From: Chloroflexota bacterium | GTDB lineage: Bacteria; Chloroflexota; UBA6077; FW602-bin22; JAMCYS01 | Length of the DNA stretch: 39,034 nucleotides | NCBI GenBank assembly: GCA_023473795.1 | Contig: JAMCYS010000129.1 | Span: 1 to 39,034 of the forward strand | Reading direction: 5' to 3' | Notes under the pieces: model-generated | Database searches by the model: none | What the model saw: the letters and a program-made list of their open reading frames with translations, nothing else | Told to the model about the DNA's origin: nothing | In this document: positions 18,278 through 23,353 of the stretch, in pieces | How positions within the stretch are numbered: the first letter of the stretch is position 1 | How the letters are laid out: each line of letters begins with the position of its first letter | Translations under genes and position numbers: made by a program

Positions 18278-19195
18278 ATGCCTGAGCAACCACTGCGCGA
18301 CTTCGCTTCCCTGATCGAGGAGGCGCGAAGATTCGGCCCGAAGAGGATGTCGGTGGCCGTGGCGCAGGAGCGCGAGATCATCAGGGCCGTGAAAGAGGGC
18401 CAGGACTTGGGGTTGGTCCAGGCCGTACTGGTCGGCGACGGGCAAGAGATCGCGGAGCTGGCGGCTGAAGAGGGCCTGAGCCTGGCGCCCGGGATGGTCA
18501 TAGACGAACCCGATTGGCTGCTGGCCACGCGCAAATCGGTGGAGTTGGCGGCCCGGGGCGAGGTCGATCTGATTATGAAGGGCAAGGCCAATACTGCCGA
18601 CCTCATTCGCGCGGTGCTGGACCGAGAGATAGGCCTGCGCACGGGTCGCCAACTTAGCGGCACCATCGTCTTCGAGGTGCCCACGTTCGAGCGGCTGATG
18701 GTCCTGAGCGACGCCTCGATCAACATCGCCCCGACCCTGCTGCAGAAGGCGGAGATGATCCAGAACGCCGTAGCCACGGCGCGGGCCGTGGGCATCCGCC
18801 GGCCGAAGGTGGCGGCGCTCACCGCCTTCGAGTTCATCAACCCCGAGATGCCGGCGACCATCGACGCCGCCAACCTCACCTTGATGGCCCGCCGCGGTCA
18901 GATCAAGGACTGCATCGTCGAGGGCCCGATTGCCCTGGACCTGGCGCTCAGCCAAGTGGCGGCGGAGCAGAAGGGCTTTCAGAGCCCCGTCACCGGGCAG
19001 GCCGACGTCTTCCTCTGCCCCGATATCGAGGCGGCCAACATTATGTTGCGCTGCATCATCTATTTGGCCAACGGCAAGGTGGGCGGGGTGATCCAGGGCG
19101 CCAAGGTGCCGATCATCCTCATCTCGCGCGCGGAGCCAGCCGAGACCAAGGTCAACTCGATGGCGCTCGCGCTGTTGGCCAGCCTGCCGGGATAA
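18278..19195 (+). CDS. ptb: Phosphate butyryltransferase (phosphotransbutyrylase) family
   Basis: 305 aa, the Ptb length (~300); ATG 18278 with AGAGAGGAG upstream. It converts acyl-CoA plus phosphate to acyl phosphate plus CoA. The PTA/PTB fold is recognisable by MSVAVAQEREIIRAV, AVLVGDG, GEVDLIMKGKANTADLIRAVLD, DASINIAPTLLQKAEMIQNAV, VAALTAFEFINPEMPATIDA and a C-terminal GKVGGVIQGAKVPIILISRAEPAETKVNSMALAL. The closing block resembles Ptb and the bifunctional enoyl-CoA hydratase/phosphate acetyltransferase group rather than classic Pta. With the kinase downstream it would turn butyryl-CoA (or another short acyl-CoA) into ATP and acid, completing the pathway of the divergent operon. Substrate range is inferred. 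Confidence 0.82.
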   Translation: MPEQPLRDFASLIEEARRFGPKRMSVAVAQEREIIRAVKEGQDLGLVQAVLVGDGQEIAELAAEEGLSLAPGMVIDEPDWLLATRKSVELAARGEVDLIMKGKANTADLIRAVLDREIGLRTGRQLSGTIVFEVPTFERLMVLSDASINIAPTLLQKAEMIQNAVATARAVGIRRPKVAALTAFEFINPEMPATIDAANLTLMARRGQIKDCIVEGPIALDLALSQVAAEQKGFQSPVTGQADVFLCPDIEAANIMLRCIIYLANGKVGGVIQGAKVPIILISRAEPAETKVNSMALALLASLPG

Positions 19196-19207: not shown

Positions 19208-19396
19208 AACCGCGGAGGACACAGAGAGCGTAGAGCCGGAGATGATTCGTGACCGGGCGCACGCGTCCGGCTGCCACAGCGAAGACGCCCCGGCGCTGTC
19301 ATTCTGACTGAGGCCGCCGGCAACAGCTGAGCGACGCGAGTTGGCTGATGGCAGCTACGTTAGCTGCCTCTGAGCCCTCAGCGTCCTCCGTGGTTT
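19208..19396. repeat. MITE-like element with inverted AACCxCGGAGGAC ends between ptb and the acyl kinase
   Basis: The left end AACCGCGGAGGAC (19208-19220) and right end GTCCTCCGTGGTT (19384-19396) are inverted repeats matching at 12 of 13 positions. They enclose ~160 bp with no gene. Inside is a perfect 8-bp hairpin, GGCAGCTA-CGT-TAGCTGCC (19350-19368). It fills nearly all of the 225-bp ptb-kinase gap, looks like a small non-autonomous element or dispersed repeat, and may change transcription into the kinase gene. The ribosome site at 19408-19412 lies outside it. Confidence 0.5.
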
Positions 19397-19420: not shown

Positions 19421-20620
19421 ATGCGGATACTACTCTCCAACGTCGGCAGCACGTCGCTGAAGTACCGCCTGCTTGAGATGGACGGCGAGGCAACGCTCGC
19501 CCAGGGCCGCGTCGAGCGAGTGGGTAGCCAGAAGGGCAGCCTTAACCACCAGGCAGCGGGCAAACCGGGCGTGGAACGCGAGCTGCACGTACCCGACTAT
19601 GCCGCGGCGGTGAAGCTGGCCATCGACCTGCTGCGCGACCCCGAGGTGGGGGCGGTCGCTGATCTGGACGACATCGCCGCGGTCGGCTTCAAGGTGGTGC
19701 ACGGCGGGCCGGTGAGCGGCTCGGCACTGCTGGACGAGAAGGTGCTGCAGGCGCTGGCGGATTTCACTCCCATCGCCCCGGCGCACAACCCACCTTACAT
19801 CCAGGCCATTCGCATCTTCCAGCGCCTCTTGCCGGGCAAACCGTTGGTCGGGGTTTTCGAGACCGCCTTCCATCGCACCTTGCCGGAGGAGGCGTTCCTG
19901 TATTCTGTGCCCTATGAGTGGTACGAGCGGTACGGCGTGCGGCGCTACGGCTTCCATGGCGCCTCCCACCGCTACGTGGCCGAGCGCACGGCAGCCATTC
20001 TCGCTCGGCCGCTAGAGGAGTTGAAGATCGTCACCTGTCATCTGGGGGGCAGCTCGTCGCTTTGCGCCGTCAAGGGCGGTCACTCGATCGACACGAGCAT
20101 GGGGTTCTCCTTGCAGGCAGGCGTGCCGATGACCAACCGGCACGGCGATATCGACGCCTGGATAGTGCCCTACATGGTCGAGAAAGCCGGCCTGACTCTG
20201 GAGGAGGTCAAGCAGGCTCTGGCCAAGGGCTCGGGGCTGTTGGGGCTCTCCGGTCTCAGCGGCGACGTGCGGGACCTGGAGGAAGCAGCGGCAGCCGGCC
20301 ACAAGCGGGCGGCGCTGGCCCTGAACGTCTTCGCCTACCAGGTGAAGAAGTACATTGGCGCCTACGCGGCCGCGCTGGGCGGGCTGGATGCCGTGGCTTT
20401 CGCCGGGGGCATCGGCGAGCGGGGCGTGGCGATGCGGCGGCGCATCTGCCAGGGGCTGGATTTTCTAGGGATAGCCCTCGACCCGAGTCGCGACGAAGCG
20501 CAAGGCCAGGAGGCGATAGTTTCACCGCCAGGCGCCTGGGTAGCCGTCCTGGTCGTGCCCACGAACGAAGAAATAGTAGTAGCCAGGGAGACCGTAAAGG
20601 TCATTGGAGGAAATGCGTGA
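19421..20620 (+). CDS. Acetate kinase-family acyl kinase (acetate/propionate/butyrate)
   Basis: 399 aa. ATG 19421 is chosen over TTG 19406 because GGAGG (19408-19412) lies 8 nt upstream. It transfers phosphate from acyl phosphate to ADP. The length and motifs are those of AckA: ILLSNVGSTSLKYRLLEM, VGFKVVHGG, FETAFHRTLPEEA, RYGFHGASHRYV, CHLGGSSSLCAV, DTSMGFSLQAGVPM, SGLLGLSGLSGDVRDL, FAGGIGERG, VVPTNEEIVVARE. It is not the shorter Buk type. Departures at the nucleotide and substrate loops (HLGGSSS for HLGGGSS, TNRHGDIDAW for GTRSGDIDP) suggest an altered acyl preference. Pairing with ptb points to butyrate or propionate. The stop overlaps the next start by 4 bp (GTGA). Confidence 0.85.
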   Translation: MRILLSNVGSTSLKYRLLEMDGEATLAQGRVERVGSQKGSLNHQAAGKPGVERELHVPDYAAAVKLAIDLLRDPEVGAVADLDDIAAVGFKVVHGGPVSGSALLDEKVLQALADFTPIAPAHNPPYIQAIRIFQRLLPGKPLVGVFETAFHRTLPEEAFLYSVPYEWYERYGVRRYGFHGASHRYVAERTAAILARPLEELKIVTCHLGGSSSLCAVKGGHSIDTSMGFSLQAGVPMTNRHGDIDAWIVPYMVEKAGLTLEEVKQALAKGSGLLGLSGLSGDVRDLEEAAAAGHKRAALALNVFAYQVKKYIGAYAAALGGLDAVAFAGGIGERGVAMRRRICQGLDFLGIALDPSRDEAQGQEAIVSPPGAWVAVLVVPTNEEIVVARETVKVIGGNA

Positions 20621-21504
20621 GCGCCAAACCCACGGGCGGTAAGCCGCCCCGCGATGACAGACCGTCTAGGCCCCGTGGGGGTCGAGACGACGCCGGAGGC
20701 GAGCGCAGGGGCTCGCCGCGTTTTGGTGATGGACCGCCGCGGGGTCGCGGTGGCCCGCCGCGCCGGGAAGGGGGCGGCCCGCCGCGGCGAGAGGGCCGCC
20801 CGCCCTGGCAGCGCGACGACCGCCCGCAAGGCAGGCGTGAGGACTCGGACGAGCGCCCGCCGCGACGCGACTACGGCGACCGGCCACCCCGGCGAGAGTA
20901 TGACGACCGGCCACCAAGACGTGACTTCGACGATCGGCCGCCGAGGCGGGAGTATGATGATCGGCCGCCGAGACGTGATTTCGACGACCGCCCGCCAAGG
21001 CGCGAACCGCCGGCGGAGGGAGGTCGCCGTGAGACCTACTTCGAACCCACCGAGCGACCGCGCCGTCCCAGCTACCGGGCCGACGTGGCCGGTCCAGAGG
21101 TCGTACCGCCCGCGGAGTACAAACCGGAGGACTTGGCCAAAACCGCGGAGAAGGTGGCCGCCGCCTGCCTGGAGGTACACCGCCAGCTGGGGTCCGCGCT
21201 GGACGTGACGACCTACCAGCGAGCGCTGGCGCTGGAGATGCAGTCGCGGTCGATGATCTTCGAGCGCGAGGAACGGGTGCCGGTTGCCTACAAGGGCAGG
21301 CAGATCGACACGCGCAAGACCGATTTCATCGTCGAGGGCTGCCTGGTGGAGATCCGCTCGCAAGTCGCCCTGGCGCCGGAGGAGGTCGCGCGGGCGGGCA
21401 ACTACCTCAAAGCCTCCGGCTACCGTTGCACGGTGCTGGTCAACTTCGGCCCGCCCAAGGTCGAGGTGCGCACGATCACCCAGCAGGCGCCCAAAGAGGA
21501 GTAG
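20617..21504 (+). CDS. Arg/Asp-rich repeat protein with C-terminal GxxExxY (PD-(D/E)XK-like) domain
   Basis: 295 aa from GTG 20617, which overlaps the kinase stop; GGAGG at 20606-20610 is its ribosome site. Residues 1-~165 are disordered and highly charged: RGG-like segments (RGGRDDAGGERRG, PPRGRGGPPRREGGG), then a nonapeptide repeat DDRPPRR[EY/DF] encoded by 27-bp units. Residues ~168-285 match the GxxExxY family (YKPEDLAKTAEKVAAACLEVHRQLGSAL...Y.RALALEM, TRKTDFIVEGCLVEIRSQV, GYRCTVLVNFG). The usual E of G-x-x-E-x-x-Y is replaced and the E-x-K core reads EIR, so nuclease activity is probably lost or changed. The tail may bind nucleic acid, as Arg-rich RGG-type tails do. Translational coupling to an acyl kinase has no obvious rationale. 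Function unknown. Confidence 0.75.
   Translation: MSAKPTGGKPPRDDRPSRPRGGRDDAGGERRGSPRFGDGPPRGRGGPPRREGGGPPRREGRPPWQRDDRPQGRREDSDERPPRRDYGDRPPRREYDDRPPRRDFDDRPPRREYDDRPPRRDFDDRPPRREPPAEGGRRETYFEPTERPRRPSYRADVAGPEVVPPAEYKPEDLAKTAEKVAAACLEVHRQLGSALDVTTYQRALALEMQSRSMIFEREERVPVAYKGRQIDTRKTDFIVEGCLVEIRSQVALAPEEVARAGNYLKASGYRCTVLVNFGPPKVEVRTITQQAPKEE
20851..21003 (+). repeat. 27-bp in-frame tandem repeat encoding DRPPRRxx units
   Basis: Five full 27-bp units start at 20851, 20878, 20905, 20932 and 20959, with a partial sixth from 20986. Units alternate between EY and DF endings, so the higher-order period is 54 bp (units 2/4 and 3/5 are most alike). Silent differences (GAC/GAT, CCA/CCG, AGA/CGG) show the array is not brand new. 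Confidence 0.85.
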
Positions 21505-21697: not shown

Positions 21698-23353
21698 CTA
21701 AGGCGTCTCCGGCGCCAGGACGTCGGCATTGAAGGCGCCGGCCTGGGCGGCGACGTCGCCCCCGTTAGCGATGGTGGCCTGGCCCGCGTGCGCCCAGGGG
21801 CAGTCCACTTTCCATTGCTGAATCACCGCCCGCTGCAGGCGGATGGCGTAGTGGTCGCCATTGTCCACCACCGGCGAGGTTGGGAGGCCAAAGAGCGCCA
21901 GCGAATTGGGCACGGAGTTGTACACCTGCCGGATGGCCGGGTTGGCGTCGAGCAGCGCCAGCCTGGCGGCAACGACGTCGGGCCAGGGCTTGCCGGCATC
22001 GTAGCTGCCCGCGTCCAGCGGCCGGGGCGTGGCCTTCTGACTGGCCAACCACTCGTCCTTGCCCATCAGCGAGAGCTGGTCGAAGACGTTGATGTAGTCC
22101 ACCCGCCCCTCGGCCGGCTTCCATTGAAACACGGCTTTCTGGAAGACCTGGGTGACCAAACCATCCCAGGTGAAGCGCCGGCTGAGCGGATAGCCCACCA
22201 CCTGCGGCCCGCCCAGGCGCTGGAACTCGCTCCAGAAAGGCACTCCCTCGTTGTCGGTCACGCTGTAGCCGCGCCCGTCGCCGGGGCCCGTCTCGCGGAA
22301 GAAATGGCCGCCGGCAACGGCGAACTCGGGCTGAGCCGGCGCGGGGGCGGGAGCGGCGGCGGGCGCCGGGGGAGGCGCCGCCGCGTAGCTCTTGTAGCGA
22401 CCGGCAAAGCCACGCGCCAGGTCGAGGTACTTGTTGCCGTAGGTAACGCTGGGCTCGATCATCGTCCCCTCGCACCACTCGTTGAACGAGTTGACGATGA
22501 TGGCCCAGTCCGGTTGCGAGGCCAGAGCTCCCTCGAAGGTGCGGGCGAAGAAAGCACCGTCCTCCCGTGAGCGGGCGAAGGCGTCGCCCCGACCAGTGCG
22601 CAGGTCGTCGTAGCCTGGCTGGATCACCGGCACCCAGAGCTTCGGCTCGCCGAGCTGGGCGGCCTTGGCGCGCGTGCGCTGCCCGTACAGCGAGAGCGTG
22701 CCGGCAGGGTCATCCGACCAGGCAACGCTGTAGGGATGGATGCCGTCGAAGGCCGCCAGGTAGGAGAAGTCGTCCCCCTCACCGATCCAGATGGTCGAAT
22801 GGTTGGGATCAACCTCCTGGCGCAGGGACCGCCAGGTATCGACGGCCGACTCGCCGCCCGCCCGGGCCACGGCCGCCGGCCGCCAGAAGAAGATGACCGG
22901 CTTGCCGCCCTTGCGCACCCAGTTAGGATGGTTGGTAAAGTCCATCGCTCGTCGCAGGGCGTCACGCACGGCGTCACGGCTGGTCAGGAAGGGCGAGGTC
23001 GTCTCGAAGTAGAGGCTGACCAAGAAATCGGAGCCCGAAACGACCGAGAGCAACGTGTTCAGGTTGGCGTCGGTGGGATTGTTGGGCCCCAGCCAGGCCA
23101 GAATGAGGCCATCCAGCCCCGCTTGCTTCGCCTGAGCGACATGGCGCTCGATCGTGGGGCGTTCGTAGGAGTTATAGCGCTGGGCCGGTTGATCGGCCAC
23201 GATCCCCGAAGTCCAGGAGTTCTGGTCGTACCAGGCGTAGTAGAAGGCCAGCGTGGGTCTGGCCGGTTCGGGCGCCGCCGCCACCGGCCCGGCGGGCACG
23301 ACGAGGGCGGCGATGATCACGACGAGGGCAAGTAGCAGGCGAGTAGTCCGCAC
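21698..23353 (-). CDS. Secreted glycoside hydrolase family 99-like protein with C-terminal Chloroflexota-type domain
   Basis: 551 aa; GTG 23353 with AGGAGG upstream. Residues 1-27 are a signal peptide (LLLALVVIIAALVVPAGPVAAA). Residues ~30-330 resemble the GH99-like (endo-alpha-mannosidase fold) domain: LAFYYAWYDQNSW, HVAQAKQAGLDGLILAWLG, KPVIFFWRP, and the hallmark VNSFNEWCEGTMIEPSVTYGNKYLDL. A Pro/Ala linker (~331-350) leads to a ~200-aa module with the pattern FRETG...FWSEFQRLGGPQVVGYPLSRRFTWDGLVTQVFQKAVFQW, which I associate with secreted proteins of Chloroflexota. It probably acts on an external polysaccharide. True GH99 activity is not certain for this 'GH99-like' group. Confidence 0.75.
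   Translation of the reverse strand: MRTTRLLLALVVIIAALVVPAGPVAAAPEPARPTLAFYYAWYDQNSWTSGIVADQPAQRYNSYERPTIERHVAQAKQAGLDGLILAWLGPNNPTDANLNTLLSVVSGSDFLVSLYFETTSPFLTSRDAVRDALRRAMDFTNHPNWVRKGGKPVIFFWRPAAVARAGGESAVDTWRSLRQEVDPNHSTIWIGEGDDFSYLAAFDGIHPYSVAWSDDPAGTLSLYGQRTRAKAAQLGEPKLWVPVIQPGYDDLRTGRGDAFARSREDGAFFARTFEGALASQPDWAIIVNSFNEWCEGTMIEPSVTYGNKYLDLARGFAGRYKSYAAAPPPAPAAAPAPAPAQPEFAVAGGHFFRETGPGDGRGYSVTDNEGVPFWSEFQRLGGPQVVGYPLSRRFTWDGLVTQVFQKAVFQWKPAEGRVDYINVFDQLSLMGKDEWLASQKATPRPLDAGSYDAGKPWPDVVAARLALLDANPAIRQVYNSVPNSLALFGLPTSPVVDNGDHYAIRLQRAVIQQWKVDCPWAHAGQATIANGGDVAAQAGAFNADVLAPETP

Follow-up and report, generated by a model that had tools for sequence, protein, structure and literature searches.

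Proteins of the GxxExxY family (TIGR04256; PDDEXK_3, PF13366) occur in many phyla, typically as a stand-alone domain of about 125 residues, and have almost no literature; no paper on their function was found with partial coverage of the literature. Two better described systems resemble what is reported below. The 23S rRNA intervening sequences with an S23p ORF (PF05635) carry a small ORF inside an element, and that of Coxiella is reported to contain heptamers, terminal inverted repeats and a 28-bp terminal stem (PMC4990558). In the REPIN/RAYT system, the abundance of a dispersed palindromic repeat tracks a single-gene protein family (PMC3116915, PMC2817692).

Here, a GxxExxY gene is described from a 39,034-nucleotide stretch of a Chloroflexota genome (contig JAMCYS010000129.1, positions 1–39,034), referred to as the window. 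Because its product has 295 residues and carries a 155-residue N-terminal tail, it is classed as a divergent relative rather than a typical member of the family. A first-pass annotation, made from the letters of the window, had proposed a disordered tail fused to a degenerate domain, with a binding role and a link to an acyl kinase. This interpretation is partly supported: the degenerate domain and the tail stand and the kinase link does not, while the element context of the family was not visible to its author.

Gene organization

The gene and its two upstream neighbours lie on the forward strand.

18278–19195, forward strand: phosphate butyryltransferase-family gene, upstream of the kinase gene (profile matches)
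19421–20620, forward strand: acetate/butyrate-kinase-family gene (PF00871, TIGR00016), with a 4-nt overlap with the start of the next gene
20606–20610, forward strand: Shine-Dalgarno sequence GGAGG, 6 nt 5' of the GTG (read from the sequence)
20617–21504, forward strand: gene for the tailed GxxExxY protein, GTG at 20617 to TAG at 21504, 295 residues

As previously annotated, the gene indeed overlaps the stop codon of the kinase in a GTGA. The G+C content at third codon positions is 0.90 in the domain, as in the neighbouring genes. A gene for a GH99/WbsX-like protein adjoins the 3' side on the opposite strand (21698–23353).

The overlap had been taken to imply matched expression with the kinase, and the comparison of loci does not support such a functional link. 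Within the order, the closest relative of the kinase (G003, 61% identity) precedes an ABC substrate-binding protein, and a GxxExxY domain was found near none of the ten kinase loci fetched from other genomes. The linkage is thus unconserved and, as judged from gene order, the coupling of the tailed gene to the kinase is local.

Structure and motifs of the GxxExxY domain

The domain and its three altered motifs are located as follows.

21145–21474, forward strand: GxxExxY/PDDEXK_3 domain, residues about 177–286 (PF13366, TIGR04256, structure model, Foldseek)
21196–21216, forward strand: degenerate name motif A194-x-x-V197-x-x-Y200, in place of G-x-x-E-x-x-Y (alignment)
21322–21357, forward strand: core D236...E245-I-R247, with the catalytic Lys replaced by Arg (alignment)
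21391–21405, forward strand: broken QxxxY motif, R259-x-x-x-Y263 (alignment)

The profile matches, which cover residues 176–287, are well above the curated cut-offs for both PF13366 (E 1.3e-23) and TIGR04256 (E 2.4e-24), the two bit scores being 85.9 versus 35 and 84 versus 22. A search of the PDB by sequence found no relative. The AlphaFold model of the domain is confident (pLDDT 91, pTM 0.82), and its best Foldseek matches in the PDB are Cas4 SSO0001, lambda exonuclease, LHK-Exo and RecE (E about 1e-3, probability 0.91–1.00), with partial overlap and a TM-score to the query of 0.34–0.48. All of these are RecB-like PD-(D/E)XK nucleases, and the model has the helix, beta sheet and core topology of that fold, to which the family had been likened in the first-pass annotation.

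Alignment with homologues likewise bears out the earlier reading of the motifs, in which the Glu of the name motif is replaced (E197V) and the core is E-I-R (K247R). In about 70 aligned homologues from many phyla, the name motif has its Glu and the core its Lys wherever these sites are covered, and the window copy alone departs at both. A third near-invariant site, missed in the first-pass annotation, is also changed: the Gln of QxxxY is replaced by Arg259. The D...(D/E)-x-K active site that characterizes PD-(D/E)XK nucleases is thus absent from the window copy. All 13 alignment-invariant columns are retained, as are the YK, YLKxSG and NF features, so the losses are concentrated in the would-be active site.

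The N-terminal tail and its repeat

20617–21081, forward strand: disordered N-terminal tail, 155 residues (43 Arg, 32 Pro, 33 Asp+Glu; low-confidence model)
20848–21009, forward strand: 27-bp repeat encoding six nonapeptides, consensus DDRPPRR-[DE]-[YF] (periods 27 and 54)

In a model of the full protein, the tail has a pLDDT of about 44–65 and no secondary structure, and the domain is confident. Together with the profiles and the alignment, this confirms the annotated fusion of a long disordered tail to a degenerate PD-(D/E)XK domain. The tandem array (20848–21002/21009) encodes DDRPPRR nonapeptides and has a 54-bp higher order, in agreement with the first description. The label 'RGG-like' is loose, as the tail is Arg-rich (43 of 155 residues) but contains just two RGG triplets; it is better characterized by its Arg, Pro and Asp+Glu content and by the Tyr or Phe present in most repeats. 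A search of the literature on bacterial RGG tails found nothing useful.

Differences between the repeat units fall mostly at codon position 3, which holds 89 of the 118 pairwise differences and 16 of the 21 minimal changes (binomial p = 7e-5); all nine third positions are variable columns, versus two of nine at each of positions 1 and 2. This bias indicates that the repeat is coding in the 20617 frame and constrained as protein, and speaks for a tail that is translated from that frame and maintained by selection.

Relatives in other genomes

With the query used, an orthologue of the gene was detected neither among 400 genomes from the phylum nor among 84,980 species genomes; the best identities are about 35–42%. 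A tailed homologue was likewise not found in the 400 phylum genomes, 23 loci of the species collection, plasmids, phages or viral contigs, and none of the aligned homologues has the same motif losses. The proposed search for other tailed GxxExxY proteins yielded intact, tailless relatives, and the tail, being unique among all relatives found, is a local innovation. Two candidate tail matches (on C89 and in G050) were rejected as unrelated repeats. The branch of the window copy is among the longest in the tree and falls close to relatives of its own phylum, although its exact place is unsure. Two other relatives (L009 and L018) form a small subgroup on a long branch, with an H-C-M-E-V-D-Y motif, an E-T-K core and undetected brackets (see below), and possibly represent another lineage that left its element.

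Inverted repeats around the GxxExxY family

Ordinary GxxExxY genes sit within elements of roughly 0.5–0.7 kb, with brackets of inverted repeats whose units measure about 9 bp. The flanks were tested for repeats because several relatives have upstream frames that look like short repeats in translation. A first scan for strict period 9 over 36 bp gave no matches, and was replaced by a motif-based test and then by a motif-free one. Within 400 bp of GxxExxY domains, the motif CAC[AG][ACG]A-N3-CAC[AG][ACG]A reaches 10.6 occurrences per 10 kb, versus 0.47 further out. As this motif was picked after some loci had been viewed, the motif-free test carries the weight.

The motif-free test scored inverted repeats between two 200-bp flanks against shuffles. 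The median score was 15 versus 7 in shuffles, and 40 of 69 loci (58%) beat every shuffle, compared to one of 143 random chunks (0.7%) and none of nine kinase loci (Fisher p = 1.6e-23 for the enrichment, window gene left out). The arms are mostly made of 9-bp units (19 of 30) and are separated from the domain by tens of bases. Bracketed examples are spread across phyla (L039, at about 1440–1950; L043, L069, L013 and L060). On this sequence evidence, the GxxExxY family is usually bracketed by inverted repeats, an association for which no paper was found in the part of the literature covered.

The repeats are also abundant in the genomes concerned. In a set of 400 genomes, 43 of the 57 with a GxxExxY gene contain a strict triple-repeat pattern, as do 41 of the 343 without one (odds ratio 22.6, p = 2e-22), and at least 10 copies are present in 25 genomes with and 5 without; both comparisons ignore relatedness and count the brackets themselves. 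Six species of one genus share an intergenic site at which the repeats and the ORF differ as a block between flanks that are 92–96% identical, and two types of element occupy the site (L014 and L056 versus L047, L051, L052 and L055).

The window gene has no such brackets. Its arm score is 7 with 200-bp flanks and 10 with 600-bp flanks, which is at the null level, versus the family median of 15. Some intact relatives also have no detectable brackets (L009, L018 and L037). A second GxxExxY gene in the same genome (C30) is bracketed and tailless, with an intact motif; its initial 'full-length' match to the window protein reflected a long open frame only. A solo pair of the repeat, lacking an ORF, lies in the transferase–kinase gap, about 1.2 kb upstream of the tailed gene.

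19209–19394, no strand: solo inverted pair of the 9-bp-type repeat, no ORF (arms about 19209–19226 and 19368–19394)

This pair initially appeared to be the best in the genome, a ranking that was discarded since the first pattern had been designed from the window. A looser pattern has 89 matches in the genome versus 30 in a control and gives about ten convergent pairs, among them the one in the window, which this pattern places at 19211–19392.

Proposed origin and alternatives

The window protein is probably, though by no means securely, a domesticated GxxExxY protein, most likely devoid of catalytic activity, that departed from its element, acquired a tail and became a non-cutting nucleic-acid binder. 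Its ancestor would have been a small PD-(D/E)XK nuclease-like protein encoded in a short inverted-repeat element, from which the window copy would have departed, hence the missing brackets. The helix Glu and the catalytic Lys would have been lost, and Arg stands at the usual Gln of QxxxY, with the fold and the other invariant residues retained, and the disordered tail of Arg, Asp, Pro and aromatic residues would have been acquired under protein-level selection. The gene would be translated from a ribosome-binding site of its own, with coupling to the stop codon of the kinase, and the kinase neighbour would provide transcription rather than a common pathway. The retained fold and the Arg-rich tail may bind RNA, or DNA such as repeat hairpins, without cutting. 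The previously suggested role in binding rather than cutting is plausible in view of the degenerate domain and the tail, from which we infer both the binding and the loss of cutting.

Some observations temper the proposed domestication. The Lys to Arg change is conservative and weighs against it, and since brackets are also undetected in some intact relatives, their absence alone is insufficient proof. The length of its branch fits domestication, but the position of the window copy in the tree depends on that long branch. It is unlikely that the protein is still an active nuclease, with Arg serving for Lys, a different residue taking over from the helix Glu, and a tail that only adds affinity for nucleic acids. 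Both acidic residues of the core (D236 and E245) are intact, and PD-(D/E)XK enzymes in general tolerate migration of active-site residues; however, neither the Glu nor the Lys is replaced in any other aligned homologue, and the window copy has also lost the usual Gln of QxxxY. The PDB entry 3sm4, one of the structural matches and by its title the K131A mutant of lambda exonuclease with a DNA duplex, would fit a Lys needed for cutting and not for binding. That the gene is recently decaying, with a still unbroken frame transcribed by read-through from the kinase, is distinctly improbable. The long branch agrees with it, as does the lack, in the genomes searched, of an orthologue against which selection on the domain could be gauged; yet the frame is intact, the ribosome-binding site is strong, third-position G+C is high, the repeat units differ mostly at third positions and the fold-defining residues are kept.

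The four-base overlap, and the family-type solo repeat in a gap of the same operon, could instead point to a partner of the kinase and phosphotransferase in a butyrate-type pathway, such as a regulator or scaffold. We consider this very unlikely, as the G003 kinase is followed by a different gene and the other kinase loci fetched have no GxxExxY gene beside them. Finally, almost no weight can be given to an untranslated tail, arising from a wrong start or an assembly artefact: no homologue has the tail, but GGAGG precedes the GTG at a spacing of 6 nt and the codon-position bias of the repeat is in exactly the 20617 frame.

Returning to domestication, ordinary GxxExxY members may act on their repeats, and the window copy may have been taken over by the host. 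The inverted-repeat setting and the repeat-rich genomes give the family a testable function, namely acting on those repeats. If this is true, the window gene would be an element protein turned to host use, and a naturally inactivated nuclease, newly tailed, that is useful as a control. A broader version is speculative and rather doubtful: GxxExxY nucleases would drive widespread miniature elements on their own repeats of about 9-bp units, much as RAYTs do with REPINs, spreading full elements and ORF-less hairpins, and the window protein would be a nuclease-dead, tailed descendant exapted as a regulator that binds repeats or RNA, perhaps with the solo pair of its own operon as a target.

Comparison with known systems

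The window protein shares with the GxxExxY family a full-length domain match, the predicted fold and the invariant YK, YLKxSG and NF features; it differs in the replaced active-site Glu and Lys, the absent Gln of QxxxY, the 155-residue tail, the lack of an inverted-repeat bracket and the operon-like setting. RecB-like nucleases (Cas4/SSO0001, lambda exonuclease, RecE) provide the nearest solved folds and share the D...ExK...QxxxY layout of the family, whereas the window copy has a short domain, low TM-scores and lost motif residues.

At the level of the element, the 23S rRNA intervening sequences likewise have a small ORF, inverted repeats at their termini and tandem arrays of short units. In the phylum of the window, PF05635 ORFs (L114–L143), which encode the S23p/IVP four-helix bundle, are often bracketed, mostly by 7-bp units, in agreement with the heptamers and terminal inverted repeats of Coxiella (PMC4990558). 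The two differ in that the folds are unrelated and the GxxExxY elements have units of about 9 bp and are intergenic in the cases read. With regard to REPIN/RAYT, RAYTs are tyrosine transposases, whereas mobilisation by GxxExxY proteins is putative; the likeness lies in a dispersed palindromic repeat whose abundance is linked to a single-gene protein family.
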